21,060 bases of DNA from a virus. The first letter of the stretch is position 1. Each line of letters begins with the position of its first letter. The stretch lies in IMG/VR virus record IMGVR_UViG_3300025120_000695, positions 1-21,060 of that record. The stretch is one strand, 5' to 3'. Made by a program: the position numbers and the translations under genes. Positions 1-21,060 of the stretch are shown here, one piece after another. The notes beneath the pieces were generated by a model. That model saw only the letters and a list, made by a program, of their open reading frames with translations, searched no databases and was not told the origin of the DNA.

Positions 1-66
1 TATTGCCTTGGTAAAAATGGGCAAGTTAGGTTTGGCAACAAGGCAACTTGGCTTGGGGTAGAGTAA
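1..66 (+). CDS. possible C-terminal end of an upstream gene (partial)
   Basis: The first frame of the window is open from base 1 to a TAA at 64-66 and would encode the last 21 residues of a protein, ending in NKATWLGVE. I do not recognise it. A second frame is also open from base 2 to a TAG at 59-61, so the frame choice is uncertain. The case for either is only that the stretch is open and lies before the promoter region. Confidence 0.3.
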   Translation, partial: YCLGKNGQVRFGNKATWLGVE

Positions 67-106
67 GTTTTGGAGATTAAATATGTTAATAAATATTATA
101 TTATCT

Positions 107-140
107 TTGCATTAGATTAATTTAACTTTTGTTATATTTG
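107..140 (+). promoter_or_regulatory. putative Bacteroidota-type promoter before the leader
   Basis: The sequence TATATTTG at 133-140 fits the Bacteroidota sigma-A -7 consensus TANNTTTG. A TTG at 107-109 can serve as the -33 element, with a 23-nt spacer at the long end of the accepted range. Transcription would start about 5 nt beyond the box, close to the ATG at 145. The element is seen directly; its activity is inferred. Confidence 0.5.
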
Positions 141-144
141 TAAT

Positions 145-210
145 ATGTTAGTTGCGGACAAAAAGATATTTTTAATAAATGCCTATTGGAAAAGAAACGC
201 AACTTCTTAA
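145..210 (+). CDS. 21-codon leader peptide frame ending inside a terminator hairpin
   Basis: A short frame starts at ATG 145, 4 nt after the -7 box at 133-140, and stops at TAA 208-210. The product would begin MLVADKKIFL and end KRNATS. Its last third runs through the left arm and loop of the terminator hairpin at 181-225, and its stop lies immediately before the right arm. A ribosome on this frame would therefore interfere with hairpin formation, which is the geometry of a translation-coupled attenuator. Given the promoter spacing, the mRNA could be leaderless. No homologue is known to me, and 21 codons can be open by chance, so confidence is limited. Confidence 0.35.
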   Translation: MLVADKKIFLINAYWKRNATS

Positions 211-225
211 CCGATAGGCTTTTTT
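181..225 (+). terminator. intrinsic terminator or attenuator before the helicase gene
   Basis: GCCTATTGG at 181-189 pairs with CCGATAGGC at 211-219 (nine pairs, one G-U), followed by six T at 220-225. An inner stem AAGAA (192-196) with TTCTT (204-208) extends the hairpin. It lies directly before the helicase ATG at 231 and overlaps the 3' end of the 145-210 leader frame. It either ends a short RNA made from the promoter at 133-140 or attenuates expression of the downstream operon. Confidence 0.75.
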
Positions 226-230
226 ATTTT

Positions 231-1757
231 ATGGAGAAAAACTTAATACACATTTACAACACTATTCATTATGAACACGCTATTAGAGTGTTTAAGGCAT
301 CCGATAAATCTATTGGCACTAGAAACGCTAAAGAATTAGAGGTTCAAAAAAACTTTTACTTTACATATAATTTAAATGAAACTTTTGATTTTGCTCTATT
401 CAACACTAAAATAGGGATGTTTCACATTATAAAAAATGATACGTTTCTTACGCCTTTCGATATGCTATGTAAAATAAAACACAACAACTGTGTTCTACCC
501 GCGTTTTATGAAATAGAATTACTTATAAAAAAATCAAAAATACCTTTTATTCGTGTTGCAAGTGATTATTTTAAGGTGTTAGAGGACAATGAATTGATTG
601 GATATAATAAGTCGGAGATTAGGCAAGACTATGGAAAGGATGTATTTGATGTCATAAAGTCTTATGATAAATTTGGTGTTTTTCCCGATAACATAAACTA
701 TAAAGAAAGTATAGGTAATATGTTAAATACGTATCACAGACCTATGAATAAGGCTTTTAGTGGCGAAAAAATAGAATGGGGGGATGACAGAATTAAGTGG
801 TCTATGTCTATGTTATCGCATATTTTTGGGGATATGTTAGATTTAGGTATTGAATATGTGCAACAATTATGGTGTAATCCCAAACAGATGTTACCTATAT
901 TGGTTTTAGCGTCGGTAGAAAGGCAAACGGGTAAAACAACGTTTAGTAATTGGCTAAATAGTATTTTGGGCGACAATCACGTATCTTTAGGGTTGGAGGA
1001 TATGAAAGGCGATTTTAACCATTTCTTTGCCGAAAAACTATTAGTATCAATAGAGGAAACGCAAGATGAATCGCATAAACTAGTAAATAAACTAAAAAGA
1101 ATTAGTACAACTAGTAAAATGCTAGTAAATCCTAAAGGAGTTAAGCAATATGTTGTAGATTTCTACGGAAAATTAATAATTCTTACAAATTCGCCCGATA
1201 ATTTCTTAAAAATAGATGATGAGGAAATTAGGTTTTGGGTAATGAATATTCCTACACTAGTTGGTAAGGGAAATCATAATATTGTAGAGGATTTAGAAAA
1301 GGAAATACCATTTTTCTTAAACTTTCTAGAAAACCTACCTATGCAAGAAAAAAGGTCTAGAATGTGGTTTCATCCAAGTGAGATTATTACAAGCACGTTA
1401 GAAAAGGTACAAAAAGAAAGTAAAAACAGTACGGTAAAAGATTTAATTTATTTATTTGAAAATGACTTGTATGACGAAATGGTAGTTTCGGGGAGGTCGG
1501 AAATGTATTTTAATGCAACGGATATTAAAGATAAATATTTTAGAAATAACAACTTAGTTACAAGGAATTATTTAAGTGGTGTTTTAGATGATTTAACAGA
1601 TAAAGGTTTATTGAATAGTTCGGATAAAAAGATAAAATATATGCCTACTATTGGGGATATGTCAGCGCAAAGGGTTGGAAAGTGTTATTGGCTATCATTA
1701 CAAGGCGATGATTTAAAAGAAGCGGTTCTTGATAATGATGATAATTTATTCTTTTAA
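231..1757 (+). CDS. SF3-type phage helicase / primase-helicase, DUF5906-like
   Basis: This is probably the replicative helicase of the phage, an ATPase that unwinds DNA at the replication fork. With the start at ATG 231 it has 508 residues. The ATPase core is visible: Walker A ERQTGKTT with the lysine near residue 235, a Walker B-like LLVSIEE around residues 270-276, and an SF3 motif C region LIILTNSPDNF with its asparagine near residue 320. A conserved EEIRFWVM follows, which may carry the arginine finger. The roughly 200 residues before Walker A show no primase motif I can recognise; in relatives this part carries a primase or a linker. The frame is open upstream to a TTG at 186, but that would put 15 codons inside the terminator hairpin at 181-225, so ATG 231 is preferred. 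The following small gene starts 2 nt after the stop. Confidence 0.85.
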   Translation: MEKNLIHIYNTIHYEHAIRVFKASDKSIGTRNAKELEVQKNFYFTYNLNETFDFALFNTKIGMFHIIKNDTFLTPFDMLCKIKHNNCVLPAFYEIELLIKKSKIPFIRVASDYFKVLEDNELIGYNKSEIRQDYGKDVFDVIKSYDKFGVFPDNINYKESIGNMLNTYHRPMNKAFSGEKIEWGDDRIKWSMSMLSHIFGDMLDLGIEYVQQLWCNPKQMLPILVLASVERQTGKTTFSNWLNSILGDNHVSLGLEDMKGDFNHFFAEKLLVSIEETQDESHKLVNKLKRISTTSKMLVNPKGVKQYVVDFYGKLIILTNSPDNFLKIDDEEIRFWVMNIPTLVGKGNHNIVEDLEKEIPFFLNFLENLPMQEKRSRMWFHPSEIITSTLEKVQKESKNSTVKDLIYLFENDLYDEMVVSGRSEMYFNATDIKDKYFRNNNLVTRNYLSGVLDDLTDKGLLNSSDKKIKYMPTIGDMSAQRVGKCYWLSLQGDDLKEAVLDNDDNLFF

Positions 1758-1759
1758 TT

Positions 1760-1924
1760 ATGATATTAAAACTAAAAAATATAAAATTAATTAAGACGGA
1801 ATATGGAAATGATGTCGTTATAAAACAAATAGAGTTAAGAAATGACGACGGAAAATTCATAAAACACATCAAATTAGATAATGATGTTGTTAGAGTATTA
1901 CATAATAGCAAAATAAAATTATAA
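1760..1924 (+). CDS. hypothetical protein, 54 residues
   Basis: A 54-codon frame begins 2 nt after the helicase stop and ends in TAATG, where its stop overlaps the ATG of the methyltransferase by one base. The product starts MILKLKNIKLIK, is rich in lysine, isoleucine and aspartate, and looks like a small mixed alpha/beta protein with no signal peptide, membrane segment or cysteine. The exact fit between two real genes and the stop-start overlap support it as a translated member of the operon. I do not recognise the family. A role in replication or DNA modification is suggested only by its neighbours. Confidence 0.7.
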   Translation: MILKLKNIKLIKTEYGNDVVIKQIELRNDDGKFIKHIKLDNDVVRVLHNSKIKL

Positions 1925-2817
1925 TGGAAACAAAAAACATAGATTTATTTGGAAACGTAGTAATAACAAACCCATTATTAAGGGATAAGTTTATTGAGCC
2001 ACCTTTTAGTATTCTAGATACAAAAAGCGGTAATTGGCAAAAAAGAAAAAAGTTGTGGAAAAGAATAGGTATGAAATCCGAGGTTGGTAGGGATGCAACT
2101 ACTTTTAATATGAAAGATTGGGCGGATAAAAAAAGGGAACAAGGTTTAAAAGGGCATAAATTACCTAGTGACACTAGTATATTTGACCCCGCTTTATGTG
2201 AGGTTTTATATCATTGGTTTGTGCCTAAAGGCGGTACTATATTAGACCCTTTCGCGGGTGGTAGTGTTAGGGGTATTGTTTCTAATTATTTAGGATATAA
2301 ATATACGGGAATAGATATAAGAAAAGAACAAGTAGATAGTAATTACGAACAGGCAAAAGAAATATTAAAGGACGAATCACATTCAGCACCTATATGGATA
2401 GTTGGGGATGCGGATAAATCATTAGACTTACTACCAAAAGACCAAAAGTTTGATTTTGTTTTTAGTTGCCCGCCTTATGCGGATTTAGAGGTTTATTCGG
2501 ATTTAGAAGGAGATATTTCTAATATGAATTACGATGATTTTATGATAGCGTATAGTAGCATTATCAAAAAAAGTATATCTTTGTTAAAAGAAGGAGGTTA
2601 TGCTTGTTTTGTTGTTGGGGAGGTTAGGGACAAGAAAGGTAATTACATAGGCTTTGTACCCGATACTATAAAGGCGTTTCAAAATGCGGGTGTTGGATAT
2701 TATAACGAGGCTATATTGTTAAATTCAATTGCAAGTGCGAGTATGCGTGCTAATGGTAATATGAAAAGCAAAAAACTTGTAAAAATACATCAAAATGTTT
2801 TAATATTCAAAAAATAA
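1924..2817 (+). CDS. DNA methyltransferase (amino-methyltransferase, phage type)
   Basis: This is an S-adenosylmethionine-dependent DNA methyltransferase of 297 residues. The SAM-binding motif I is ILDPFAGGS at residues 106-114, followed by YTGIDIRKEQ (motif II-like). The catalytic motif IV is SCPPY at residues 181-185, of the (D/N/S)PP(Y/F) type used for exocyclic amino methylation of adenine N6 or cytosine N4. Motif I precedes motif IV and a motif X-like segment (LCEVLYHWF) precedes motif I, a gamma-like order. The N-terminal stretch PPFSILDTKSGNWQKRKKLW resembles other phage orphan methylases. No restriction enzyme partner lies beside it, so it is probably an orphan enzyme protecting phage DNA or marking it. 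Target sequence and methylated base cannot be read from the protein. Confidence 0.88.
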   Translation: METKNIDLFGNVVITNPLLRDKFIEPPFSILDTKSGNWQKRKKLWKRIGMKSEVGRDATTFNMKDWADKKREQGLKGHKLPSDTSIFDPALCEVLYHWFVPKGGTILDPFAGGSVRGIVSNYLGYKYTGIDIRKEQVDSNYEQAKEILKDESHSAPIWIVGDADKSLDLLPKDQKFDFVFSCPPYADLEVYSDLEGDISNMNYDDFMIAYSSIIKKSISLLKEGGYACFVVGEVRDKKGNYIGFVPDTIKAFQNAGVGYYNEAILLNSIASASMRANGNMKSKKLVKIHQNVLIFKK

Positions 2818-2822
2818 ATAAA

Positions 2823-2979: not shown

Positions 2980-3321
2980 ATGTCAGAAACAAGATTACAA
3001 CAAGAAATTATAATGTGGTTTAACAACGAATATCCTTTATATAGGGGTTTATTGTGCTACAACAACAATAATTCAACGGGAAGTGTTCGGGGTGTTTGGA
3101 ATAAATTTTTAGGAATTATAAAAGGTAGGTCAGATTTAACGTTTTATTTTAACGGAAAAGCCTATATGATAGAATTAAAAACCTTAAAAGGTAGACAAAG
3201 TGAAGTGCAAAAGGATTGGGAAAAATTGATAGTAAGGCACGGGTTTACTTATATAGTAGTGCGTTCGCTACAAGATTTTAAAATAGCAATACACAAAATA
3301 ATTAATAATTTGGAATATTAA
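2980..3321 (+). CDS. VRR-NUC domain nuclease
   Basis: A 113-residue protein that is essentially one VRR-NUC domain of the PD-(D/E)XK superfamily, which cuts branched or structured DNA. The catalytic pattern is present: E9 in the first helix (LQQEIIMWF), GRSD with D52, the IELK core with E65 and K67, and Q77 in the following helix. Phages commonly carry such stand-alone VRR-NUC proteins, probably to resolve Holliday junctions or replication intermediates before packaging. It lies 1 nt after the CGC-motif gene and is the last gene before the virion operon. The -33 element of the next promoter overlaps its final codons. Confidence 0.88.
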   Translation: MSETRLQQEIIMWFNNEYPLYRGLLCYNNNNSTGSVRGVWNKFLGIIKGRSDLTFYFNGKAYMIELKTLKGRQSEVQKDWEKLIVRHGFTYIVVRSLQDFKIAIHKIINNLEY

Positions 3322-3356: not shown

Positions 3357-4655
3357 ATGAAATTACTTGGGTATAATTGGCAGTTTCCACTTTGGTTTAG
3401 AAATCGCGAGGGGGAGAATTTTTACGACTATACAACCGCTAACGGTTGGTATCAATCAAAAAACAATTTAGCAATTGCACAAGAACACCCCCTACTTACA
3501 CCAGCATTATTATTTGTTGCAAAACTATTTTCACAAGCAGAATTTAAAGTTTGCAGAAAAAGTAATGGCGAAATAGCTCCAAATCATCCAATGATAGGCG
3601 TTTTAAAAAAACCAAACGCAAACCAAACACTTCCAGATTTATTAGAAAGTTTATTGTTTAGTCAATTAGCAAATGGTGTAGGCGTATTATACATTAAAAG
3701 AAATGCTTTAGTAGGAAAACCTAATTCATTATATGTTTTAGATTATCAATTAATAGAGTTTCCCGAAAATTTAGAAAAGTCTAAATTTATAAATAAAAGT
3801 CAAAACGAAAAATATTTAAACAAAGAAATTATTTACGATGAGAGTGGGGAAAACATTAAAATAAAATTAAAAGATTTATTGTTTTTTTATGATTTACCTA
3901 ATTACTTAAATGAAAATCCTTTCGATGTTAAGTCAAGGCTCGACGGCTTAAAACAGACTTTAATAAATAGTATAGATAGCGCAAAGGCTAAAAATATAAT
4001 TATAAAATCTAACGGTAAAGAATTAATTACGGGTCAAAAAGACGGATTCCCTTTAACGCCAGATGAAAAGAAAGATGTTGAAGATAGATTTAATGGAAGT
4101 TATGGGGTTGGTTATAATAGAAAAAGGGGTATTGTTACTAAAGCAAATATTAAGTGGCAATCTTTACATATTATTGCAAGGGATTTAGGACACGACGAAG
4201 GTACTAAAACGGATGCAAGTGTAATATTTGCAGCTTTACATATTCCAAATGATGTTTATTCTATTACGGGAGCAAAGTCTACTTATAAAAACGCAAACGC
4301 ATCTTTAATTAGTTATATTCAAAACGAAATGATGCCTACATTAAATAGCTTTATAGAAACTATACAACCTTTGTTTGGCGACAATTATTATTTAAAAGGA
4401 GATTATAACCACTTACCCGTTATGTTACCTAGTCTAACTATTACTTATCAAAATTTAAGCCTACAAATGAAAGCTTTAAACGATGCTAGAATGACGGGCA
4501 TTAATGACAAAGACGCTTTAGAAATGGTAGGTTTACCTAGAACATTAGAGTTAAAACCAGTTAAACCATTAAGTTCAACAGGAGAAAATCAAGAACAAGA
4601 AGAAGAAAATAACGATAATCAAAACGAAGAAAATGAGCAAAGCGGAAGTAATTAA
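3357..4655 (+). CDS. portal protein (HK97 family)
   Basis: The portal forms the dodecameric ring at one capsid vertex through which DNA enters and leaves and onto which the tail is built. The 432-residue length fits HK97-type portals. Family features include an N-terminal segment LLTPALLFVAKLFSQAEFKV, the motif HPMIGVLKKPNANQTLPDLL with SLLFSQLANGVGVLYIK behind it, and a C-terminal half with SLISYIQNEMMPTLNSFIE. The last 25 residues or so are strongly acidic and rich in Asn, Gln and Glu and are probably disordered. It opens the head operon behind the promoter at 3309-3339. The large terminase normally found just upstream is absent. The protease and capsid genes that follow support the call. 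Confidence 0.9.
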   Translation: MKLLGYNWQFPLWFRNREGENFYDYTTANGWYQSKNNLAIAQEHPLLTPALLFVAKLFSQAEFKVCRKSNGEIAPNHPMIGVLKKPNANQTLPDLLESLLFSQLANGVGVLYIKRNALVGKPNSLYVLDYQLIEFPENLEKSKFINKSQNEKYLNKEIIYDESGENIKIKLKDLLFFYDLPNYLNENPFDVKSRLDGLKQTLINSIDSAKAKNIIIKSNGKELITGQKDGFPLTPDEKKDVEDRFNGSYGVGYNRKRGIVTKANIKWQSLHIIARDLGHDEGTKTDASVIFAALHIPNDVYSITGAKSTYKNANASLISYIQNEMMPTLNSFIETIQPLFGDNYYLKGDYNHLPVMLPSLTITYQNLSLQMKALNDARMTGINDKDALEMVGLPRTLELKPVKPLSSTGENQEQEEENNDNQNEENEQSGSN

Positions 4656-5631: not shown

Positions 5632-6834
5632 ATGAAAAACGAAGAAATTCAAAAAATGCTTGATGACAAGTTTAAGTCTGTACAAGACGAACTTGCAACG
5701 GCACAAGAAAATGGCGCTACTAAAGAAGAATTAGTAGAGCTTTCAAACGCTATTGAAAAAGCGGGAAACAGTTTAGAAGATTTTATTGCAAGTCAAACAA
5801 AAAATGAATTAAAAAGCTACCAAGCTCAATTTAAAGATTTTTTAGTTGAAAAAGCTAATGAAATTAAAGAAATGTTTGATAACGGTAGTGGTTCAATAGA
5901 ATTTACACCTAAAGCAGTAGCTGAAATCACAACAGGTTCAGGAACAGATGCAGTTGCTTTTCCAGCAACGGCGCACAATGATTTAGAAAACTTTAACTTA
6001 CGAAACGATGATGTATTAGTTTCTATGGCTAACGTATCTTCTAGTTCAAGTCCTGTTTTTTCTTATTCAGAATTAGAGCCAAAAGACGGAGATTACACAT
6101 TTGTAGCTGAAGGAGCAACAAAGCCACAAATTGATTTCAAATGGGTTAACCGTTTTGCGCAACCTTACAAAATTGCAGCTCACGAAATTTTAACAGAAGA
6201 AGCGGTAACGGATGTAGCTAGACTACAATCGGTTGCTAACGAATATCTTGTTAAAAAGCACGGACTTTTCAAAGCTAACAAACTTTATTTTGGAACGGGT
6301 GTAGGAAACGAGGCTGAGGGAGCTACCGTTGTTGGTAGAACTTTTGTAGCGGGAGATATGGCTGGAGCAGTAACGGATGCAAATTTTATGGATGTAGTTA
6401 ATGCGTGTATTACTGATATTTACACTACACATAACTATACTGATGAATCTAGTTATATGGCTAACATTGTATTGATTAACCCAGTTGATTTTTACTTACA
6501 ATTAGTATCTGCTAAAGACAAACAAGCTTTACCTTTATATCCACAAGCGGGATTATTTAACCAAGTTACAATTGGTGGAGTTACTATTAAGCCGTGGGAT
6601 AAAATTCCAGCAGGAAAGATTTTTGTAGCAGATATGAAAGCTATGAACGTTATTAATTATGTTCCTTTTTCTGTTCGTTTAGGTTGGATAAATGACCAAT
6701 TTATCACAAACCAATTCACAATGGTAGGTGAGTCTAGATATTTCCAGTTTGTTAAAAATTTGGACAGACAAGCATTTATCTATGATGATATTGCGACAAT
6801 AAAAACCGCAATAACAACAGCAACGTCAGTATAA
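5632..6834 (+). CDS. major capsid protein (HK97 fold, with delta domain)
   Basis: This is the shell protein of the icosahedral head. Of 400 residues, about the first 83 are a charged, helical, coiled-coil-like delta domain that acts as built-in scaffold; the linker FDNGSGSIEFTPK follows, so the protease probably cuts between roughly residues 83 and 105. The mature part shows HK97 capsid hallmarks: the E-loop region ELEPKDGDYTFVAEGATKPQ, then FAQPYKIAAHEILTEEAV, which begins the spine helix, and a P-domain ending in QFVKNLDRQAFIYDD. No separate scaffold gene is present, which agrees with a fused delta domain. The start is preceded by the A/T-rich run ttatttaaaATG. As the most abundant virion protein it would be expected to be highly expressed. 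Confidence 0.93.
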   Translation: MKNEEIQKMLDDKFKSVQDELATAQENGATKEELVELSNAIEKAGNSLEDFIASQTKNELKSYQAQFKDFLVEKANEIKEMFDNGSGSIEFTPKAVAEITTGSGTDAVAFPATAHNDLENFNLRNDDVLVSMANVSSSSSPVFSYSELEPKDGDYTFVAEGATKPQIDFKWVNRFAQPYKIAAHEILTEEAVTDVARLQSVANEYLVKKHGLFKANKLYFGTGVGNEAEGATVVGRTFVAGDMAGAVTDANFMDVVNACITDIYTTHNYTDESSYMANIVLINPVDFYLQLVSAKDKQALPLYPQAGLFNQVTIGGVTIKPWDKIPAGKIFVADMKAMNVINYVPFSVRLGWINDQFITNQFTMVGESRYFQFVKNLDRQAFIYDDIATIKTAITTATSV

Positions 6835-8494: not shown

Positions 8495-9448
8495 ATGAAA
8501 ATGGCAACAATAACAGATATTGCAAATAAAAAAGAATGTGGTAGCGGGGTAACGGCTAACACTGGAAAATTAGGGTGCTTGTCGCTATTCGGCACACCAA
8601 CGCACGCGATTTTAATAGGCAAATCGTATAGAATCGACTCAAACATTACGTGGGGTATTGACTACATTAAGTCGTTAACATTGAAAGGCGCTATGGTTCC
8701 CCTAATTGGAGCAAGTGCTTTTGAGGATGTTTCATCCGAAGATACTTATTCTACTAGTGTAAACGGAGTTAAGAGATTAAGTCTTAAAGGATTACCTGAA
8801 TATAAATTAACTTTCGAGGAAGGTCACGAATTTTATCGTCAATTAGATAGATTACGTGGTTTCAAAGATTGGGATGTTATTCTTGGGGATGAAAACGGAA
8901 ATTGGCTAATGGCTCAACATTCCGACGGAAGGTTTGGCGGGTTAACTGCGGGTCACTTAACACCTGAACTTACTAAAAGAAAAGTAGCGGGTGGAGATGC
9001 TGAGTCGAAATCGGTAATGTTTCAGTTTTTAGATAGATTACAATTTGACAGATATTACGCTATCTTAAACGCTGATGAATTAGATTTTTACCCAGAGGAA
9101 ATTATGTGTGTTAACGGTGTTGATGTATCATTTACATCAGTTCCGTCTAACGGCGACACATCATTAGAACTTAAGTTTTTACTTAATTCAGACCATAATA
9201 CTCCTGTTCTTGGAATGGACAATGCTGATGTTTATGTAAAAGTAAATGGAGCTACGGCTACTTTAGGAACACTGACTCAAAACGGGGCTAATGGAGATTA
9301 TAGTCTTGCAATTACAAGTCCGTCGTTAGCTACTAACGATACGCTTGAAGTTGGGTTTTGGCATAGCTCTATTCCTAATGGAATTGGTGAGGTAGGAAGT
9401 GAATTATATCGTGCAACGCCTACGTTAACGGGAACAGTTATATTATAA
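8495..9448 (+). CDS. putative major tail (tube) protein with C-terminal Ig-like domain
   Basis: A 317-residue protein at the tail-tube position, last gene before an intrinsic terminator, as expected for an abundant virion protein. Residues 1 to about 200 look like a mostly beta tube domain, with LTLKGAMVPLIGASAFEDVS, RLSLKGLPEYKLTFEEGHEF and VMFQFLDRLQFDRYYAIL. From about residue 205 (VNGVDVSFTSVP) to the end the pattern VYVKVNGATATLGT, DYSLAITSPS, LEVGFW suggests an added Ig-like domain of the kind that decorates siphovirus tubes. The start could be ATG 8495 or ATG 8501, which lies two codons later; 8495 is closer to the A-rich run. Function is inferred from position, size and fold pattern. 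Confidence 0.6.
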   Translation: MKMATITDIANKKECGSGVTANTGKLGCLSLFGTPTHAILIGKSYRIDSNITWGIDYIKSLTLKGAMVPLIGASAFEDVSSEDTYSTSVNGVKRLSLKGLPEYKLTFEEGHEFYRQLDRLRGFKDWDVILGDENGNWLMAQHSDGRFGGLTAGHLTPELTKRKVAGGDAESKSVMFQFLDRLQFDRYYAILNADELDFYPEEIMCVNGVDVSFTSVPSNGDTSLELKFLLNSDHNTPVLGMDNADVYVKVNGATATLGTLTQNGANGDYSLAITSPSLATNDTLEVGFWHSSIPNGIGEVGSELYRATPTLTGTVIL

Positions 9449-10910: not shown

Positions 10911-11112
10911 TAGTAATATCAGTTTAGAAAAATTAACAATAAGTTGTGTTAATGCAAAATCTGTTTATATGACAAACGGACAAGTAGATAACAAAATTAC
11001 TTTTAGCGTACAACAATATCCAAACATAATATATAACGGCGACCCAACATTAAACGAAAGAGTCGCAGAATTAGAAGCAAAAGCAGTATTAACAAATAAT
11101 TTAAATTGGTAA
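10891..11112 (+). CDS. hypothetical small protein with coiled-coil end, 73 residues
   Basis: A 73-residue protein whose start overlaps the previous gene by 20 bases in another frame. The first 45 residues look beta-rich (NISLEKLTISCVNAKSVYMT); the C-terminal part PTLNERVAELEAKAVLTNNL has a short heptad pattern that could trimerise. This is typical of a small fibre-base or collar piece. It lies 3 nt before the first fibre-like gene. Function is unknown beyond this context. Confidence 0.65.
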   Translation: MGLLAINSNISLEKLTISCVNAKSVYMTNGQVDNKITFSVQQYPNIIYNGDPTLNERVAELEAKAVLTNNLNW

Positions 11113-11115
11113 AAA

Positions 11116-11685: not shown

Positions 11686-12555
11686 ATGTCAAAAATAAAA
11701 ATAGATAAAGTAGTATCGTCTTTACCGTCTACATTAGTAGCTAATACTGTTTATGCGGTAAGGGTAGGAACTGGCTTTGATTTATATATAACCGACAACA
11801 CGGGTGCAACCGCTCATCAAATAAATTCTAGCGGGGGAACTACCCCTTGGACTACTGACACTAATGGTATAACATATACCGCGGGAAATGTTGGAATTGG
11901 GACAGTCTCTCAATCAGGCGAAAATTTACGTGTATCAGGATTTGCAAGATTTAATTCAGATGTTAGATTTGATGGAGATGTTCAATGTGCTGGTGGCGAC
12001 TTAATAGTAGGTAATTCGCTTAAAGACGTAAACTCAGCAACGGGAACATCGGGTCAAATTCTTTCCTCGGAAGGATCTGGCGGAGGAGTTGAATGGATAG
12101 ACGCACCAAGTGGCGGAGGTGCGCAATTACTTTCCTATAACTTTTCAGCTAATCACAATACTAATGATACAGCGAATTATTATCAATTTAGAAACAAAAG
12201 TAATAGTACTATGTACACAAGGCGTGCTACATTTTCAAGTTGGGGGGGAGTTTATTATGTAGACCTTGTAGCACCAGAAGATTGTTTTTTAAAATCATTT
12301 ACAATAAAAAGTAGAAATGGGTCTACTTGGGCATCTGGTTTGCAAATAAAAATGAGAATACATAAGAATATATCTACTAGAGAATATGACGGAAGCTTTG
12401 TTACATCAACAGGGTCTGGAAATGACGGAAAAATAACATTTGACCTAACTAGTTCTAACACATCATTTTCCCAAGGCGATGCTGTTTCCATAGGCTTTAA
12501 TTGTACAGGCGCTATGGGGTATGTTACCGCTATGGCAATATTTGAATTAACATAA
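11686..12555 (+). CDS. tail fibre-like protein 2 (putative receptor-binding)
   Basis: A 289-residue protein in three parts. Residues 1-50 are an adapter with LPSTLVANTVYAVRVGTGFD, similar to the preceding protein. Residues 60-140 carry the fibre signature TAGNVGIGT, a short beta repeat region (RFNSDVRFDGDVQ) and a Gly-rich connector (TGTSGQILSSEGSGGG) seen in many Bacteroidota phage fibres. Residues 147-289 form a separate beta-rich head (LLSYNFSANHNTND to AMAIFELT) that is the best candidate for the receptor-binding part. It abuts the first fibre gene. Its position before the tape measure gene is unusual. Which receptor it binds cannot be read from the sequence. Confidence 0.75.
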   Translation: MSKIKIDKVVSSLPSTLVANTVYAVRVGTGFDLYITDNTGATAHQINSSGGTTPWTTDTNGITYTAGNVGIGTVSQSGENLRVSGFARFNSDVRFDGDVQCAGGDLIVGNSLKDVNSATGTSGQILSSEGSGGGVEWIDAPSGGGAQLLSYNFSANHNTNDTANYYQFRNKSNSTMYTRRATFSSWGGVYYVDLVAPEDCFLKSFTIKSRNGSTWASGLQIKMRIHKNISTREYDGSFVTSTGSGNDGKITFDLTSSNTSFSQGDAVSIGFNCTGAMGYVTAMAIFELT

Positions 12556-12564
12556 ATAAATATT

Positions 12565-12906
12565 ATGAATACATATAAATGGAATTGTAGAGATGTAGAG
12601 GTTTACACTACCTATGTTGATTCGGAGGGAAACACCGAACCTTTTGTTATATTTAAAGTCAATTGGGAAATATTAGTTTGCGATGAAATAGGAAACGCAA
12701 CTACTATTAGTGGAATTGAAGAATTAGAAATAAAAAATTTAGATAACTTTACTAGTTTTGAAAACGTTACTAACGATGAGGTAACGGGGTGGGTAAAAGC
12801 ATCAATGGGAGAAAGCGGTGTGGAATTTCAACAACAAAACGCTGATTCCGAATTAGATAAATTAATTAATCCAACTACGCAAACTTTACAATTAATTGCG
12901 GATTAA
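12565..12906 (+). CDS. small phage protein, DUF7936-like, 113 residues
   Basis: A 113-residue protein starting YKWNCRDVEVYTTYVDSEGN, then VIFKVNWEILVCDE, and later FTSFENVTNDEVTGWVKASM with MGESGVEF and a proline-containing end (LINPTTQTLQ). This order (WxC, strand, FxxFxxxTxxEVxGWVxxxMG) matches a family of small proteins in tail regions of many phages that I recall as DUF7936. Function is unknown; tail or fibre assembly is inferred from position. It lies 12 nt before the tape measure gene. The family name is from memory. Confidence 0.7.
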   Translation: MNTYKWNCRDVEVYTTYVDSEGNTEPFVIFKVNWEILVCDEIGNATTISGIEELEIKNLDNFTSFENVTNDEVTGWVKASMGESGVEFQQQNADSELDKLINPTTQTLQLIAD

Positions 12907-12918
12907 ACAATAAATAAA

Positions 12919-15900
12919 ATGGCTAAGATTAATGTAAATGCACAAGAAAGTATAGCGTCTATTAGAGATTTAATAGGTGTTATGAAAACTTTAAATAAGG
13001 AAACGGCTAAAATAGGAAACGCAAGCGGTAGTTCTTTTACTAAAATACAAAGCGACATTAAATCTTTAAGAAGTGCAATATCTACTATAAGCAAAAAATT
13101 TACTGAATTAAATCAAAGTTTAACTAGAAATAGTAATATAACAAAAACCAATTCTAAAAGACTTACTAAAAATAGTGCCGAAATAAAACGTAATTCCGAT
13201 TTAACAAAAACCAATTCTAAAAACAAAAGACAAAACAGTGATGCGATAAATAAATTATCGAGTTCGTTAAATAGAGATACAATAGCCACTAAAAAGAATA
13301 ACGCATCTAAAAAGAAAAGTGGGGGGATTTTAGGAAAGCTTGGAAAAAGGTTTTTAGCGCTTGGAGCAGCTTTAGGTGTTGCTAGAATTTTACAACAAGC
13401 AGCTTTAAGTGTTGTTAAATTAACAATTAAGTTTCAAAGTTTAGGTTTTGCTATGGAAAAAATTTCATCGGGGAATCAAAATCTTGTGGGAGCTTACAAG
13501 GCAGTTTATAGTACGGTGGACGATGTTGCGGATAGCTTTGGGTTTTTAATTAGCTTAAACACTAGATTTGGTGCTAGTTTAGATGCGACTAGTGAAAGGT
13601 GGTTAAAGTTTAAGACGGCAGCACAACAATCGGGATTAGTTGTTGAAGAAACAAAACAAATATTTGAATCCGTTACAAAGGCAAGTGCGGTTTTAGGTTT
13701 ACGTACAGATGAATTAAAAGGTGTCTATTTAGCTTTAGAACAAATGCTATCTAAAGGTAAGGTTACGACGGAGGAATTACGTAGACAATTAGGGGAAAGA
13801 TTACCAGGTGCGGTTGGTATTATGGCGGATTCTTTAGGTGTTACTACGGCACAATTAAGTAAGATGATGAAAGCGGGGGAGGTTGTTTCGGGTGCGGTTT
13901 TACCTAAATTTGCTAAAGCACTAGAAAAGGCTTATGGTATTATGGACACCGACACGATTGATAATTTAGCTACGGATGTAGGTAAAATGACGGGTGCTTG
14001 GGATAGATTTGTATTGACGATTACGGAGGGAGATAGTCTTATAAGTAGAACTATTGGTGGTACTATGAAACTAATTACCTCATCTCTTAATGCACTTACT
14101 AACTATTTAGAAACGGTAGAACAAACCGCAAGACGTACGGGGGATGAAAGATTTGGCGAAGAGAATTTAGCTTATATTAGTAAAGAAACCGAGTTGATAA
14201 TGAAACAACAAGGTGTATTAATAAAAACAGAAAAAGAATACCAAGATTTATTAGATAAAGCCGATGAAAAAACAACAACAGCGCCTTTAGAAAGTAAGGC
14301 AAAATTAGATGCACTTAGGGAAGAAATGGCTTTACAAAAAGAATTTCAAAAATTTAAAGAACAAAAAAGAGATGTGTCAAGAAAATTTGCGTTTCAAGAA
14401 ATAGAAGAAGTTAGAAAATTAAGAGACGAGCTATTAAAACAAGTTCAAATGGATGAAATTATCGCTAGCAAAATGAAAGTTAGAATGATAAATAATCGTG
14501 GAGAGGCGGTTTTGGTTGGAGAATTAACTGAGGCGGAAAAAGAAAGATTTAAAGTTGGTTTTGAAGGTTTTAAAAAAACAGAAGAAGCGTACGTAAAAAC
14601 ATTTGATTTATCATTAAAACTAAACGCACTTTTGGAAAAATCTAATAAAGTAGCAGCTGTAGACGATAGTGGCAGCGGAAGTAACAGAAAGCGTAAAATC
14701 AAAATGGCTAAAGAATATAACGGCACTTTAGAGGATGAAATATTAGCATTAGAACGTGTAGCCGATTTAAATGAAAGAGTTTTTAGCCAAGAGGGTCAAT
14801 CAATGGATGACACTATTTTAGCTTTAGATGAATATATAAAAGCTTTAAATAAGATAAATGATTTAGAAAATCAAGAAGTAAATAATGATTTAGACGCAGC
14901 TGAAAAAGATGAACTAAACAAGTGGAAAGTAAGAATGGACAGTTGGGATAAAGGTGCATCAAACTATCAAGAACAAGTAGTCCAACACGAAAAAGCATTA
15001 AAAAATATTGAAGAAAAATACAAGGATTTAAGATTAATTCAAAATCAAAAGTTTTTAAATAAAAATCTAGATATATTACAAGAATCGCAAGACAAAGAAA
15101 TAGCGATGATTGAAAAGTTTATGGAACAAGACCAACAAGACGCTACAATAGATAGTGACGGTGCGATTAGAGGTATTGAAATGGCTATGTTGAAAGAACA
15201 CGAGGGTACGGCGCAATATAATGCCTTGTATAAGTTGCGCGAGGAAATGTTACAACAACATCAAAACAATTTAATAGATATTGAAGTTGAAGCTTTAAGA
15301 AAAAAAGCTAAATTCTATTTGTCAAAAGAGGGCGGTGGCGATATGGATATGGCTGACAATTTATTTGCATTGGCGCAAGGTCTTGAAGGAACTAAAACTG
15401 GATTAGATGAAGTTAAACCTAGTGTCGAGGAAATAGCCGAGGTGGTAACGGACATAATGGACACTATGGGGGATTTAGGCAATGCCCTTTTTGAAAGTAA
15501 AATAGCAAGAATAGACGAGGAAATTGCTAGAGAAACAGAAAAATATGACACCTTATTAAGACTTGCAAAGGATGATGAGGCGGAACAAAAGATAATCGAA
15601 AGGAATAGGGAAATTAGATTAAAAAAGCTAAATGACAAAAAGAAAAAAGAACAAATAAAACAAGCTAAATTTGAAAAGGCTATGAATATAGCAAAAGGTA
15701 CGGTTGCACTTGCATTAGCTATACAATATGCTTTTGCCCAAGACGCTCCTCCGCCTTTTAATGCAGCTCAGGCAGCAATTGTTGCAGCTCTATCAGGAGT
15801 AGAATTAGCTACTATTATAGCAACACCTATACCAACATTTGCAACGGGTGGTGTTATGGGTCACGACGGAAAGGCTTTAATTAATGACGGCGGACAAATG

Positions 15901-16188
15901 GAATATGTCCAAAGGGGAGGTAAAATAATGACGGCTAAAAACGAAAACGCATTAGTTGATTTAAAGCGTGGAGATATTATTCATAAAGATTTTGAAACAA
16001 TGCAAAGAAAAACCTCAATTTTTAATAGTATATTTGGAGGAGGAAATGAATCTACACAAAACGAAATTGATTTTGTTCAAATTGAACTAGCTATCGAAAG
16101 AGGTTTTAAAAATGCAAAAATAAATAATAATATTTCCGTAATCAACGAGTTGGATGATTACGCTGAAAAACAACAAAATTGGAGCTAA
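12919..16188 (+). CDS. tape measure protein
   Basis: This protein sets tail length and sits inside the tube until DNA injection. At 1089 residues, and about 0.15 nm per residue, the tail would be very roughly 160 nm. Residues 1-135 are a helical, Lys/Asn/Ser-rich region with a 21-residue repeat. A hydrophobic stretch lies around 137-170. Residues 170-365 match the tape-measure N-terminal domain, with FGFLISLNTRFGASLDATSE, KGKVTTEELRRQLGERLPGA and VLPKFAKALEKAYG. A long coiled-coil middle follows. Near the C-terminus (about 914-975) is an Ala-rich hydrophobic segment, then PTFATGGVMGHDGKALINDG, typical of tape measure ends. It abuts the next gene (TAAATG). The start follows aataaataaaATG. Confidence 0.93.
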   Translation: MAKINVNAQESIASIRDLIGVMKTLNKETAKIGNASGSSFTKIQSDIKSLRSAISTISKKFTELNQSLTRNSNITKTNSKRLTKNSAEIKRNSDLTKTNSKNKRQNSDAINKLSSSLNRDTIATKKNNASKKKSGGILGKLGKRFLALGAALGVARILQQAALSVVKLTIKFQSLGFAMEKISSGNQNLVGAYKAVYSTVDDVADSFGFLISLNTRFGASLDATSERWLKFKTAAQQSGLVVEETKQIFESVTKASAVLGLRTDELKGVYLALEQMLSKGKVTTEELRRQLGERLPGAVGIMADSLGVTTAQLSKMMKAGEVVSGAVLPKFAKALEKAYGIMDTDTIDNLATDVGKMTGAWDRFVLTITEGDSLISRTIGGTMKLITSSLNALTNYLETVEQTARRTGDERFGEENLAYISKETELIMKQQGVLIKTEKEYQDLLDKADEKTTTAPLESKAKLDALREEMALQKEFQKFKEQKRDVSRKFAFQEIEEVRKLRDELLKQVQMDEIIASKMKVRMINNRGEAVLVGELTEAEKERFKVGFEGFKKTEEAYVKTFDLSLKLNALLEKSNKVAAVDDSGSGSNRKRKIKMAKEYNGTLEDEILALERVADLNERVFSQEGQSMDDTILALDEYIKALNKINDLENQEVNNDLDAAEKDELNKWKVRMDSWDKGASNYQEQVVQHEKALKNIEEKYKDLRLIQNQKFLNKNLDILQESQDKEIAMIEKFMEQDQQDATIDSDGAIRGIEMAMLKEHEGTAQYNALYKLREEMLQQHQNNLIDIEVEALRKKAKFYLSKEGGGDMDMADNLFALAQGLEGTKTGLDEVKPSVEEIAEVVTDIMDTMGDLGNALFESKIARIDEEIARETEKYDTLLRLAKDDEAEQKIIERNREIRLKKLNDKKKKEQIKQAKFEKAMNIAKGTVALALAIQYAFAQDAPPPFNAAQAAIVAALSGVELATIIATPIPTFATGGVMGHDGKALINDGGQMEYVQRGGKIMTAKNENALVDLKRGDIIHKDFETMQRKTSIFNSIFGGGNESTQNEIDFVQIELAIERGFKNAKINNNISVINELDDYAEKQQNWS
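13129..13254 (+). repeat. 21-residue tandem repeat in the tape measure N-terminus
   Basis: Two neighbouring 63-nt units encode 21-residue blocks beginning NSNITKTNSK (from residue 71) and NSDLTKTNSK (from residue 92). A 19-base stretch, ACAAAAACCAATTCTAAAA, is identical in both (13141-13159 and 13204-13222). Twenty-one residues equal three heptads, so the repeat extends a coiled coil. Confidence 0.75.
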
Positions 16189-18597
16189 ATGATTGATATT
16201 AGAAACGAAAACGTTAATGATATAATTTTTGTTTTACAAAACGAAGATAATGTGTCTTTGGTTTTAGACCGAGATCCGATAGGTTGGCGTGAGGACGGTT
16301 TAAATATTGTACGAAACAAAAAGTATCACGGAATTGTAACGCAATTTACAGGTTCGTTGGAATTTGAAAAAAACGCTAAAGATTTTATATTAGACGCTTA
16401 TAAGATAGGCGGACAAAACACAGATTTATATTTAATAAAATATCATTTAAGAAAAGAAAGTTCTAATTATAGGGTAACGGGTGTTGGTAGTAATGATGAT
16501 ATAGATATAAAATATGAAGAAAAATATAGAGGACTTGCGGATTTTGATACGTTAAATGAAGAAAACAGAAAATTAAAAGTTAAATTTACATCCGACGTTT
16601 TAGAAAAATTAATCAAATCAGTAGAGGGGGATGAATTTGAATTAGAAAGAATCAATGATATTGACGGTAATGGTATTACGCATCCATTTGATAAACATAA
16701 TATAAGAATAGAGGGTAGAACTTTAACCGCTAATGGACAACATACAAACTTCGGTAATCCTAGCGGTGCTTATCCTATGCGACCTTTTCAACTAGGAAAT
16801 AATAAATTTATTATTCCTACTAAATTTATAACTAAAGGTTTTGATAGACACGTTGAGGCTAATTTTAGCACATTTGACCCTAATGATAGTTTAGGTTGGC
16901 AAGCTAATTTTATTTATAACGATAGTTTAATACCTAATTTAAGAACAAACCTTACGGTAGAATGGAATATTAATATAAATTGTTTTTTCGCTCAAGACCA
17001 AGGATATAATGGTGCTATAACTCCACAATTACGTCTTTATAAATATGACGCATCAAGTCAAAACTATGAAAGAATATCTGCTGCCGACGGAGGGAGAGTG
17101 CTTATTGGGGAATCCAATAACCCAGGAACGGACGGCTGGATGTATTACTATAGCGAGCAACAAATGGTTATGAATGGCTCACATACATTTGAAAACTTAA
17201 CAAGTGAACACGCTATGACTATTGAATTTTATGTTACTGATTTTGCTAACCAATTTTCCCCATATAACCCAGGGTATTTTTACTTTGTAAATCAGATAAG
17301 CTATTATCACGTTGAATTAAAAGAGGAATCTAAATACGAGCCTGATAGTAAAATTCATACTTTTAGTTTTGTTAACGAGGTTGCCGAAAGATTAATGGAA
17401 ATAATTACGGGTAAAAAGGGTAAGTTTTATTCACGCTTGTTTGGGAGGGATGTAGATAGATTACCTCCCTCAACTGGATTTCCACCCGAATATCAATCAT
17501 ACGATTATCCTAAAACAGGCGCGGAAGGAGATACGGGAATGATACACGGATTTGACATTAGACGGTTTACTAATCAAAACATATTATACAAATCTCTTTC
17601 GGTAAGTTTAAAAAAACTAATAGAAGGACTACAAGCTACATTTAATATTGGTGTAGCCATAGAAAATTATCAAGACGGACAAAGATTAAGATTTGAAAAA
17701 CTAAAACATTTTTATAGACCAGAGATAGTTGTTAAATTACCTAATCAAGTTATTAACGTTAAAAGAAAAATAGAACCTAAAATGTTTAATTCTAACGTTA
17801 AAATGGGTAGTGAATATGGCGGAGATTATGAAATGGGTTTAGGTCTAGACGAGCCGAATGTTAGGACATCTTTTTCTACACCTTTAAAGAAAACTACTAA
17901 TAAATATGATAAAATTTCTAAATTTCGTTCGGACGATACGGGAATGGAAATAATTAGACGGCAACCAGAATTTTTAGATAGAACAAAAGATACACAACAA
18001 GACCAACACGTATGGTATTTAGATTGCAAAAAAGATTATGATAATGGCGCAGGTCAATGGACACAAAAAATTTGGCAAGATGTTTTAGCGTCACAACCGC
18101 AAGGTATTAATGACCCCGATAGTTATAAAAGTTGGAAATTTACACCTAAAAGATGTTTATTAAGGCACGGTTGGGTTTTACGAGCGGGAATGGAAATACC
18201 TAAATATGTTAATTATAGTAGTTATGTATATATGATTTTATCATCATCAGACTCTAACATAAACTTATCTACTAGATACATTGGGGAATCGACACAAGTA
18301 GTTGAAAGCGCAGACCAATTAGTAAGAAGTTTAGATAGGTCAATTGTTTTGCCTGAAATTGTTACCTTTACAGTAAATGTAAATCAAGATATGCTTGATT
18401 TAATTTATGGAACACAAAAAATAGACATACTTGACGAAAATGGACTTGTTGTTGACACAGAAGAAGTGCCTAATTGGTATTTTAAGTTTCAATGGATAAA
18501 CGAAAACGAAGAAATTGAAACGGGGTATTTACGTTCTTTTAAATCTCAAAAAGGACAATTTGAAATGATTAAAGCAAACGATAATTTAATATATTAA
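16189..18597 (+). CDS. large tail-tip / baseplate protein (putative)
   Basis: An 802-residue protein directly after the tape measure gene, where distal tail and hub proteins are encoded. The N-terminus has DRDPIGWREDGLNIVRNKKY followed by HGIVTQFTGSLEFEKNAKDF, a pattern I associate with tail-tip proteins of Bacteroidota phages. The middle (about residues 225-385) is rich in aromatic beta segments such as NLTVEWNININ-like strands and YVTDFANQFSPYNPGYFYF. The last third includes LVRSLDRSIVLPEIVTFTVN and a WYFKFQWINENEEIETGYL end. No peptidoglycan hydrolase motif is visible. A distal-tail or hub function rests on position and size. It is 2 nt from the next gene. Confidence 0.65.
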   Translation: MIDIRNENVNDIIFVLQNEDNVSLVLDRDPIGWREDGLNIVRNKKYHGIVTQFTGSLEFEKNAKDFILDAYKIGGQNTDLYLIKYHLRKESSNYRVTGVGSNDDIDIKYEEKYRGLADFDTLNEENRKLKVKFTSDVLEKLIKSVEGDEFELERINDIDGNGITHPFDKHNIRIEGRTLTANGQHTNFGNPSGAYPMRPFQLGNNKFIIPTKFITKGFDRHVEANFSTFDPNDSLGWQANFIYNDSLIPNLRTNLTVEWNININCFFAQDQGYNGAITPQLRLYKYDASSQNYERISAADGGRVLIGESNNPGTDGWMYYYSEQQMVMNGSHTFENLTSEHAMTIEFYVTDFANQFSPYNPGYFYFVNQISYYHVELKEESKYEPDSKIHTFSFVNEVAERLMEIITGKKGKFYSRLFGRDVDRLPPSTGFPPEYQSYDYPKTGAEGDTGMIHGFDIRRFTNQNILYKSLSVSLKKLIEGLQATFNIGVAIENYQDGQRLRFEKLKHFYRPEIVVKLPNQVINVKRKIEPKMFNSNVKMGSEYGGDYEMGLGLDEPNVRTSFSTPLKKTTNKYDKISKFRSDDTGMEIIRRQPEFLDRTKDTQQDQHVWYLDCKKDYDNGAGQWTQKIWQDVLASQPQGINDPDSYKSWKFTPKRCLLRHGWVLRAGMEIPKYVNYSSYVYMILSSSDSNINLSTRYIGESTQVVESADQLVRSLDRSIVLPEIVTFTVNVNQDMLDLIYGTQKIDILDENGLVVDTEEVPNWYFKFQWINENEEIETGYLRSFKSQKGQFEMIKANDNLIY

Positions 18598-18599
18598 TA

Positions 18600-20717
18600 A
18601 TGGCAACTAAAGGAAAAATAACAATTACTTTTAATACGGACGCATCAGACGGAGAAACTATTTCTTTTGAAAGAACGTCTACCTACGGTACTATAAGTTT
18701 AGATTCTACATTTGTATCGGGTAGTAGAGTTGCAAATAGTCAAATTCCTTTAGGAACACCTACACTTAACGCTGGGGAAATGACTGCAGCAGCTTATGAA
18801 ACATATTTTAACATAGACCAAAATCAAGGTAAGTTAATGAATATTTCTAGAAACATAAATGTTATAGAAATTGACATTTTGTATGGTTGGGATTTCCAAA
18901 ATTTTAGTTCAGATGTTCCGTCTATTGGCGGTGTATTAGTTCCCGAAGTTCCCGATACTTTTCAGTTATTAGCAGCTAGTTTAATCACGTATATTACAGA
19001 CCCTTGTGAATTTGTAACGGTAAATGTTTTAACGTCGGAACAAGCAACGGGTTATTATTTAAAATTGCCAGGGACTTACCAATCAGTTCCAATAACTACA
19101 GTTAGCACTAATCCTTTTAATGTAGACGTTCCAAGATTGCAAGGCTATGAATTAAAAGTTATTAAATCGGGGAGTAGTAATGTTATTAATGTTTCAGAAT
19201 ATTTCAATGAACCTTTTTTTTATTTTAGACGTGTAGGTCAACAAAATATAGTCTTAACGGTAGCAAGCGATTATTTTAGCGGTTCTACGGTTTCAGCTAG
19301 TGTTGATTATCTAAATCAATTAACCGAAAGACCTAATCCTTTATTACAAATAGAATATAGTTTAGACGGCTATAATTGGTTTGATGACGGCACTTTTTCG
19401 GGTCAAGTTCCAGGAGATTATACTTTATTTATAAGAGACGGAATGGGGTGTACTATTCAAAAAGATTTTAAAATAAAAGGTACTGTTGGTCAAAGAACGC
19501 CTTTCTTTTTTATTTCAGAAGCAAATAGTATTAGTTTTAGTCAAAGTCAAGTTTGGAACAATGAACAAAACGGAATATATAAAAACCCAAACAATGTACT
19601 AGCTACAAGCGATTTACAAGAAAATTTATATAAAGAAAGATTAATATTTAGAAAAGAAGATGAGGTAAGAATACAATTTAAAAGCAACTATGAATATCAC
19701 GATATTAGTGTAGAAGATTGCGAAGGAAATTCAACTGGAGTTAATGCTACATCTCCTGAAAAAATGTCTAACAATATGAATTTATATGAAAGTTTAGATT
19801 GTAAATTAGTTGGGTTAAGTAACACAAGAGCTGGGATATATTTTGATAGTGGAAACTATTACGACATAAACGGAGCGGTTGAAGGCACTTATGAGCTTTT
19901 TGGTAATCTACCCGATAGTGCTATGATAGATAATAAAATAAGAATTCCAGGGCGAGGTGTTTTTGTAATTCAAGATGTAATTTATAATGAGGAGTTAAAC
20001 AAAAAGCTAATTGTTTTTAATATGAATAATAGCATTGGTGTTAATTTTCCTGTTGATGAAATTATGCAGTGTCATTATAATTTATTAAATTTTGAAGTTT
20101 ACGAATTTAATATAGATTTTTCTGTTCCTATTATAAAATCTGGATTAGAAAAATTAATTAGAGTTAATATTAGAGCTACGGATGATTTGTTTGATGAAAT
20201 ATTTTTCTGCTCAGAATATTCGCTTATAGTAGATTCAGATAATTTTAATGGAAATAAATATGTTGGTATAAATTATTACGGAAGTAACAATAGGTCTATA
20301 TTTTATTTATATGGAATAGAACATTTTATACGTGCTGAAATAATTGACATATCTAGTTATATAGATGATGACAACGATATATTAAAAGGGGATTTACATA
20401 CTTACCTTACCGAATCTACTGTCCATAAAGGAATTAAAATACTTTTTTCAGAAGTTACGTATAGGATGATGATGAAATTATCGTTAGCTTTGTCAAGTGA
20501 ATTTTTATTTGTAAACGGTCTTGGTTATGTTAAAGACAAATCTTTAAAAGTAGAACAAATAGAACATACAAATCTATATACAATGGAGTGTCAATTGATA
20601 AGTACAAATTCAAATTACAACCCTATGGCTAATCAAAGAACGGGGGAAAGAGAAGGATATAAAACATTATATATACCAAACATATTAGGAACAGATACAG
20701 GTGTAGTTAAATTATAA
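18600..20717 (+). CDS. large tail-tip protein with SprB-like repeat (putative)
   Basis: A 705-residue protein following the tail-tip gene. Residues 1-120 begin KGKITITFNTDASDGETISF and look like a beta-rich tail domain. A second beta region covers about residues 121-225. Residues 249-290 (IEYSLDGYNWFDDGTFSGQV, then PGDYTLFIRDGMGCTI) closely follow the consensus of the SprB repeat (YSxDGG, F, LxxGxYTVxVxDxxGCT) found in flavobacterial surface adhesins. The remaining 400 residues are mixed beta sequence with no family I recognise. It is most likely a baseplate or host-contact protein. The SprB-like part may be structural (an Ig-like spacer) or may contact or mimic host surface proteins. Confidence 0.65.
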   Translation: MATKGKITITFNTDASDGETISFERTSTYGTISLDSTFVSGSRVANSQIPLGTPTLNAGEMTAAAYETYFNIDQNQGKLMNISRNINVIEIDILYGWDFQNFSSDVPSIGGVLVPEVPDTFQLLAASLITYITDPCEFVTVNVLTSEQATGYYLKLPGTYQSVPITTVSTNPFNVDVPRLQGYELKVIKSGSSNVINVSEYFNEPFFYFRRVGQQNIVLTVASDYFSGSTVSASVDYLNQLTERPNPLLQIEYSLDGYNWFDDGTFSGQVPGDYTLFIRDGMGCTIQKDFKIKGTVGQRTPFFFISEANSISFSQSQVWNNEQNGIYKNPNNVLATSDLQENLYKERLIFRKEDEVRIQFKSNYEYHDISVEDCEGNSTGVNATSPEKMSNNMNLYESLDCKLVGLSNTRAGIYFDSGNYYDINGAVEGTYELFGNLPDSAMIDNKIRIPGRGVFVIQDVIYNEELNKKLIVFNMNNSIGVNFPVDEIMQCHYNLLNFEVYEFNIDFSVPIIKSGLEKLIRVNIRATDDLFDEIFFCSEYSLIVDSDNFNGNKYVGINYYGSNNRSIFYLYGIEHFIRAEIIDISSYIDDDNDILKGDLHTYLTESTVHKGIKILFSEVTYRMMMKLSLALSSEFLFVNGLGYVKDKSLKVEQIEHTNLYTMECQLISTNSNYNPMANQRTGEREGYKTLYIPNILGTDTGVVKL

Positions 20718-20721
20718 TAAA

Positions 20722-21060
20722 ATGGCAAGAACAGAAGAACAAATACAAATAAATACAATAGCAATACAAACATTAATTGATAATGCCCAAAAGATAAATC
20801 AATTAACGCAAGTCACATCATTTGATGATGCGGATGTTTTTTTAGTTCAAAGAAATGCAGCTGGGGATAGTTTTTATGCTACTTGGTTACAAATTAAAAA
20901 TGCTATCGGTGGCGGTAGTATGGAATTTTTAGATTTAACAGATGTTCCTAGTAATTATTCTTGTCAAGTTGGTAAAAATGTTAAAGTAAAAGCCACTGGC
21001 GACGGATTAGAATTTACACCCGATTATATGGATTTTGCTTGTAGTGACGAAACAAGTGAC
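20722..21060 (+). CDS. tail fibre-like protein 3 (N-terminal part, cut by window end)
   Basis: A frame opens at ATG 20722 behind attataataaaATG and stays open to the last base (113 codons seen). The first 30 residues, ARTEEQIQINTIAIQTLIDN and on, are a coiled-coil-like helix. Next comes DDADVFLVQRNAAGDSFYAT, then LDLTDVPSNYSCQVGKNVKV and KATGDGLEFTPD. The LTDVPxxYxxQxGKxVxVxxTxDGLEF pattern is a familiar linker in phage fibres. This is probably the main side fibre or receptor-binding protein, with most of its length beyond the window. Confidence 0.75.
   Translation, partial: MARTEEQIQINTIAIQTLIDNAQKINQLTQVTSFDDADVFLVQRNAAGDSFYATWLQIKNAIGGGSMEFLDLTDVPSNYSCQVGKNVKVKATGDGLEFTPDYMDFACSDETSD

Follow-up and report, generated by a model that had tools for sequence, protein, structure and literature searches.

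What keeps a phage genome almost free of GATC, a word that chance alone should have placed in it dozens of times? The question is raised by IMG/VR record IMGVR_UViG_3300025120_000695, the whole of which forms the window analyzed here (21,060 bases, G+C 31.6%), a phage-genome fragment that starts and ends within the genome. A preliminary description of the sequence had ascribed the scarcity of GATC to selection by a GATC-cutting host enzyme and had seen in it a handle on the host. We find that GATC belongs to a set of at least seven short words purged from the record, together with CATG, CCGG, GGCC, CCATC, CTTAG and GGTGA. This pattern is very probably the result of restriction-site avoidance under several host systems with different targets, in a tailed phage lineage probably of Flavobacteriales.

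Depletion of GATC and six other words

As first described, GATC occurs solely at positions 12074 and 16273, and the rough estimate that tens of sites should be present was sound: 57.8 are expected from base composition, 33.8 from a first-order Markov model and 40.4 from a maximal-order Markov model (z -7.1). GAT itself is indeed frequent, with 434 occurrences. Counts based on open reading frames (ORFs) used 21 forward ORFs picked out of the 35 listed, covering 19,866 bases, and here the two GATC sites compare with a mean of 35.2 under synonymous-codon shuffling (minimum 24 over 300 shuffles). Together, the Markov and shuffle counts rule out a GATC frequency near expectation. The avoidance is visible in codon choice, and the five codons originally cited for it were read correctly as GAC followed by C (Table 1). 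Over the ORFs, aspartate preceding C is encoded by GAC 22 times and by GAT once, whereas GAT is favored over GAC before A, G and T (116:40, 95:53 and 95:10, respectively). No such switch before C is seen for asparagine (AAT 32, AAC 17) or tyrosine (TAT 29, TAC 7).

Six other words are equally depleted, and a lone GATC enzyme was thus rejected as the full story. CATG, CCGG and GGCC are absent from the window, against 36.9, 25.5 and 12.2 sites expected under the maximal-order Markov model, and the ORFs contain one CCATC, three CTTAG/CTAAG and two GGTGA against codon-shuffle expectations of 28.6, 26.4 and 25.6. For CCGG and GGCC the shuffle expectations in the window alone are small (9.3 and 7.8), so the case for both also draws on the Markov model and a related contig. 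Summed over the window ORFs, the seven words have 8 sites where about 162 are expected (a sum of three regions). Codon choice again reflects the words: histidine preceding G is always CAC (22 CAC, 0 CAT), and glycine-glutamate is never written GGT-GAA in 22 pairs in the window or 29 in the relative, even though GGT and GAA are the commonest codons for these amino acids in both.

The relative, IMGVR_UViG_3300025108_000196 (31,651 bases), aligns well with 18 of the 21 window ORFs, 15 of them at 84-99% identity and the others at 81%, 78% and 67%; 11 of the 18 are at least 94% identical. Its ORFs hold 3 GATC (53.2 expected), 3 CATG (59.7), 0 CCGG (14.0), 1 GGCC (13.7), 1 CCATC (45.8), 1 CTTAG (38.4) and 5 GGTGA (36.6). 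Because of their shared ancestry, the two genomes are not independent samples.

The depletion concerns exact words. When the window and the relative are pooled, observed/expected ratios lie between 0.00 and 0.06 for the four palindromes, and no other word among the 136 of four letters falls below 0.45. Words that differ from them by a single letter have ratios of 0.88-1.50 for GATC, 0.56-1.30 for CATG, 0.56-2.25 for CCGG and 0.65-1.50 for GGCC; this neighbor test covers the four palindromes and not CCATC, CTTAG or GGTGA. Those three words are low on both strands, although only 3 to 6 sites of CCATC and of GGTGA are expected on the strand where they are rarer; within that limit, strand-biased avoidance of the Type III kind was rejected. 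Words without avoidance include CTAG, CGCG, CCWGG, GCATC and GGATG.

The depletion is kept up by selection at synonymous sites. We compared aligned codons for the same amino acid in the two genomes, and set synonymous transitions that would create a word in the first genome's context against the rate for the same codons elsewhere. With both directions pooled, which are not independent, word-creating changes were found at 7 of 732 sites against 63.7 expected, about nine times rarer; one direction alone gave 3 of 364 against 31.4. By word, the changes numbered 1 of 87 for GATC (10.2 expected), 1 of 156 for CATG (15.5), 1 of 97 for CCATC (13.7), 0 of 49 for GGTGA (5.2), 0 of 88 for GGCC (3.8) and 2 of 195 for CTTAG (7.7). 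Among 22 control words, CTAG offered no site of this type; the other 21 gave a sum of 155 changes, matching the 155.9 expected, with single words running from 2 against 9.6 (GTTAG) to 10 against 2.9 (GAGGA).

Other words are low to varying degrees. GGGAC (3 in the window and 0 in the relative, against 12.1 and 18.0; 0 changes against 7.1 in the divergence test) is likely a further avoided word, which we kept out of the core set. TGAGW was rejected as a core word: it is low (11 and 7 against 45.0 and 69.0 in window and relative), but the divergence test gave it no support (TGAGA 3 against 6.1, TGAGT 7 against 5.2). GTAC (0.62 in the window, 0.60 in the relative) and TCGA (0.47, 0.51) are moderately low.

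For two of the words, the pattern can be read base by base. DdeI reads CTNAG and HphI reads GGTGA. In the window and relative together, CTWAG occurs 4 times against 64.5 expected and CTSAG 13 times against 23.2, which makes DdeI a doubtful agent behind the CTTAG signal. HphI is doubtful for these two genomes as well, since GGTGAG is spared there (6 against 4.8 expected) whereas the other three GGTGA contexts total 1 against 57.6; six of the seven residual GGTGA sites are followed by G. It is possible, though we hold this only tentatively, that host enzymes read CTWAG (and not, or hardly, CTSAG) and GGTGAH. We know of no enzyme with either specificity, and an exact-string literature search for CTWAG, GGTGAH and DTCACC, a limited check, found no paper.

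Breadth of avoidance among related phages

The window and relative were placed in a sample of 63 phage sequences of at least 12 kb, cut to 54 loci once near-duplicates had been removed. Of these, 52 are additional to the pair: 17 derive from capsid or tape measure scans or from Leeuwenhoekiella phage vB_LaeS_Arctus_1, and 35 from a methyltransferase scan. Ratios below 0.2 were found for GATC in 24 of the 54 loci, for CATG in 11 and for CCATC in 4, and for CCGG in 20 of the 40 loci with enough expected sites. The avoided sets vary from phage to phage, and in eight loci no word passes the threshold. All seven words fall below 0.25 solely in the window and its relative; the next-best locus, L054, reaches this for five of the seven, with CCGG at 0 against about 4 expected. 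Since 24 of the 54 loci share the depletion of GATC, this word alone is a weaker handle on the host than was first proposed, and the seven-word set is more telling.

The base-level detail differs among loci too. L053 and L054 have ORFs without any CTNAG (L054 has two CTWAG outside its ORFs), while in L078 CTWAG is at 1 against 20.2 and CTSAG at 31 against 30.4, yet five CTWAG are present over its full length. The six other loci that avoid GGTGA all lack GGTGAG as well, with 0 against 3.0, 2.2, 4.5, 1.3, 1.6 and 1.1 expected in L054, L067, L074, L004, L040 and L053, respectively.

Other sets stood out in the same sample. In L101, L114, L121 and L050, many words containing CAG or CTG are depleted (e.g., ACAG, CAGA, CTGA, CCAG and CTGC), a pattern suggestive of an avoided three-letter core. 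The ORFs of L119 have no GGCC, CCGG, AGCT, GTAC, GAGA, ACGT or TCGA (14 to 32 expected each), a breadth like that of the window with another set.

Possible agents in the likely host order

In the annotated collection, Arctus_1 is the closest phage, with a capsid 48.5% identical over 90%. A capsid scan of genome contigs returned 11 loci, six of them weaker, partial matches in other groups and five covering most of the capsid at 31-51% identity (one in Elizabethkingia, three in Chryseobacterium and one in a Bacteroidales metagenome-assembled genome). The Arctus_1 match, with the Elizabethkingia and Chryseobacterium relatives at 31-43% identity, makes Flavobacteriales the likely host order, as judged from sequence.

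In such hosts, phages bearing GATC, CATG, CCGG, GGCC, CCATC, CTWAG or GGTGA(H) sites would be cut upon entering some cells, and site-free variants, mostly synonymous, would take over until none to three copies per word remained. We infer that the agents are restriction endonucleases, that the set is carried by several host strains rather than one, and that the reader of GATC would be a Sau3AI-, MboI- or DpnI-type enzyme. These three types all read GATC and are therefore indistinguishable by avoidance. Selection by restriction enzymes, as first proposed, thus has good support, with depletion that is confined to exact words, is maintained at synonymous sites, is phage-specific and is mostly absent from the sampled chromosome stretches of the order; the single GATC cutter was too narrow a cause for a purge of at least seven words.

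At least three of the words (GATC, GGCC and CCGG) have matching gene families in sequenced genomes of the order; enzymes for CATG, CCATC, CTTAG and GGTGA lay outside the search. Among 196 genomes, matches over the curated cut-off were found for the DpnII/MboI family in 1, MutH/Sau3AI in 5, DpnI in 3, HaeIII in 2 and HpaII in 6, some of the HaeIII and HpaII matches having internal stops. In both MutH/Sau3AI-positive genomes that were scanned (G052 and G083), an endonuclease over the cut-off of the NCBIfam Sau3AI family adjoins a cytosine-5 methyltransferase gene. The GATC agent could instead be specifically of the methyl-dependent DpnI type, punishing phages last grown in a Dam-methylating host. 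The DpnI matches above would allow for this, as would D12-type methyltransferases over the cut-off in 53 of the 196 genomes and, in a passage of Rusinov et al. 2018 (PMC6286503) that lists GATC as a Type IIM site, a GATC deficit in each of the 46 phages of hosts encoding such enzymes. We consider this unlikely, as it accounts for GATC alone and not for the six other words, though for GATC itself it may hold.

Chromosomes were represented by 40 stretches from genomes of the order to which a Chryseobacterium genome belongs, which we take to be Flavobacteriales; 38 of them, from 33 genomes, were long enough, and 20 of the 38 had been chosen at or near methyltransferase or endonuclease matches. 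Their medians bear on a second alternative, in which a composition or codon-context bias common to phage and host order makes the words rare. Medians below 1 for GATC (0.71) and GGCC (0.67 in 37 stretches) are in its favor. However, just one of the 38 stretches has GATC below 0.2, none has CCATC or GGTGA below 0.6, and CCGG has a median of 1.08. Related phages reach ratios as high as 1.53 for GATC and 1.59 for CCATC, and the single-letter neighbors of GATC are normal, which leaves a shared bias highly improbable. The one exceptional stretch (L159; G013:C1:1-20000, on a 24.9 kb contig) has GATC at 1/47, CTTAG at 1/18 and TCGA at 5/50, and may be a phage contig that was binned with the genome. 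The enzyme and avoidance in the chromosome do not always go together: GATC ratios near MutH/Sau3AI matches were 0.21 and 0.29 (G052, G083) and 0.51 (G176), GGCC was at 0.76 in a genome with a broken HaeIII homologue, and CCGG was at 0 against 11 in one whose HpaII homologue has an internal stop in the match.

Mutation rather than selection could erase sites if methylated cytosines in CCGG and GGCC decayed to thymine, and GGTC/GACC, the product of GGCC, is at 1.5 times its expectation. Against this, CTGG/CCAG, the product of CCGG, is at 0.65 of expected, sites are not being created either, in either direction of comparison, and methyl-adenine in GATC or CATG would not decay to thymine as methyl-cytosine does; we give decay very little credence. 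Just as little attaches to the phage's own methyltransferase or nuclease as the driver, for although both genes are present (Table 1), the avoided words are quite different in phages whose methyltransferases are 49-82% identical, and a single enzyme would leave seven unrelated words unexplained.

Several observations weigh against restriction-site avoidance under several host systems. Some neighbors of palindromes other than GATC are low too (CCTG and CAGG, 0.56), as are ACTC, GAGA and CTTC (0.45, 0.46 and 0.60), which may reflect codon context and not restriction, because codon-context preferences are not taken into account in the codon shuffle. The divergence test is powerless for CCGG (2 of 68 changed, 2.5 expected), and some control words were low in it (GTTAG 2 against 9.6, GTAC 3 against 7.8, AGCT 7 against 13.1) and GAGGA high (10 against 2.9). 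The enzyme families and chromosome counts come from order-level proxies, none of them tied to this phage, and the phage encodes a DNA methyltransferase, a second possible defense.

Gene content, residual sites and known systems

The ORF products include a primase-like protein, a DNA methyltransferase, a VRR-NUC protein, portal, major capsid and tape measure proteins and two large virion proteins (Table 1). The methyltransferase has weak matches to solved structures (best E 5.6e-06), and its family occurs in 87 phage loci, at 49-97% identity in the 80 that were listed; where counted, the avoided sets of these loci vary widely. No tRNA genes were found in the window, and no integrase family was matched in PHROGs by the 14 window ORFs and 6 relative proteins scanned, 7 window ORFs being outside the scan.

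Table 1 Genes, residual sites and other features of the window
Feature	Position	Strand	Remarks
Whole record: structural and DNA-metabolism region of a tailed phage	1..21060	.	Purged of GATC, CATG, CCGG, GGCC, CCATC, CTTAG, GGTGA(H)
DNA methyltransferase gene	1924..2817	+	phrog_12517, phrog_498; Pfam N6_N4_Mtase
VRR-NUC gene	2980..3321		
Portal protein	3357..4655	+	
Major capsid protein	5632..6834	+	96% identity with that of the relative
Tail module differing most from relative	10891..16188	+	Tape measure 67%; three ORFs without good counterpart; 4 of 8 residual sites
Residual GATC	12074..12077	.	Within diverged tail module
Residual GATC	16273..16276	.	Kept in relative (relative position 21739), near flanks identical
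Sole CCATC (GATGG on +)	11971..11975	-	Within diverged tail module
Residual CTTAG	1553..1557	+	
Residual CTTAG (CTAAG on +)	12923..12927	-	Tape measure gene start; kept in relative
Residual CTTAG	14314..14318	+	Tape measure gene
Residual GGTGA, then G	6727..6731	+	Kept in relative
Residual GGTGA, then G	9386..9390	+	
GAC-C where GAT would give GATC	2245..2248	+	Others at 6694, 9191, 15130, 18001

The sites that remain are concentrated in the tail module. In the window and relative together, the module holds 11 sites against 95.6 expected and the rest of the shared block 7 against 233.5 (sums that count three sites kept in both genomes twice). The module was likely acquired by a recombination swap, to judge from its divergence from the relative, and the concentration fits a recently swapped module that is incompletely purged; the numbers are small.

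Near loss of GATC is known from phages of Sau3AI or DpnII hosts, e.g., staphylococcal phage K. It is common to that type and to the present phage, in which GATC shares its depletion with at least six other words and two sites are left. Arctus_1 (PP314354), of which 39,479 of 42,666 bases were analyzed as locus L002, avoids CATG as the window does (10 against 86 Markov-expected); unlike the window, it shows no avoidance of GATC (100/122) or CCGG (50/47) under the same model, and it avoids CTCAG (7/41).

The strategy of avoidance itself is known. Rusinov et al. 2018 (PMC6286503) describe, in the passages drawn on here, near elimination of Type II sites as a documented strategy of double-stranded DNA phages, stronger in non-temperate ones. 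The present phage resembles those cases in its near loss of short sites, which include ordinary Type II palindromes such as GATC. It differs from the cases in those passages in that at least seven words are lost at once, three of them non-palindromic, and in that the loss was also tested by divergence between two relatives. GATC and GGCC are also among the methylated words reported in marine viral genomes in a passage of a further study (PMC9516812). This phage is a strong case of the strategy, unusually broad and clean, and the base-level detail of GGTGAH and CTWAG is its least ordinary part.

A thoroughly purged phage is a compact record of the restriction systems met by its lineage. The seven-word combination gives a firmer lead to the host than GATC does by itself, and suggests which enzymes to seek in uncultured Flavobacteriales. 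If the base-by-base reading is true, the words missing from the phage would list the restriction systems of its uncultured hosts, uncharacterized ones included.

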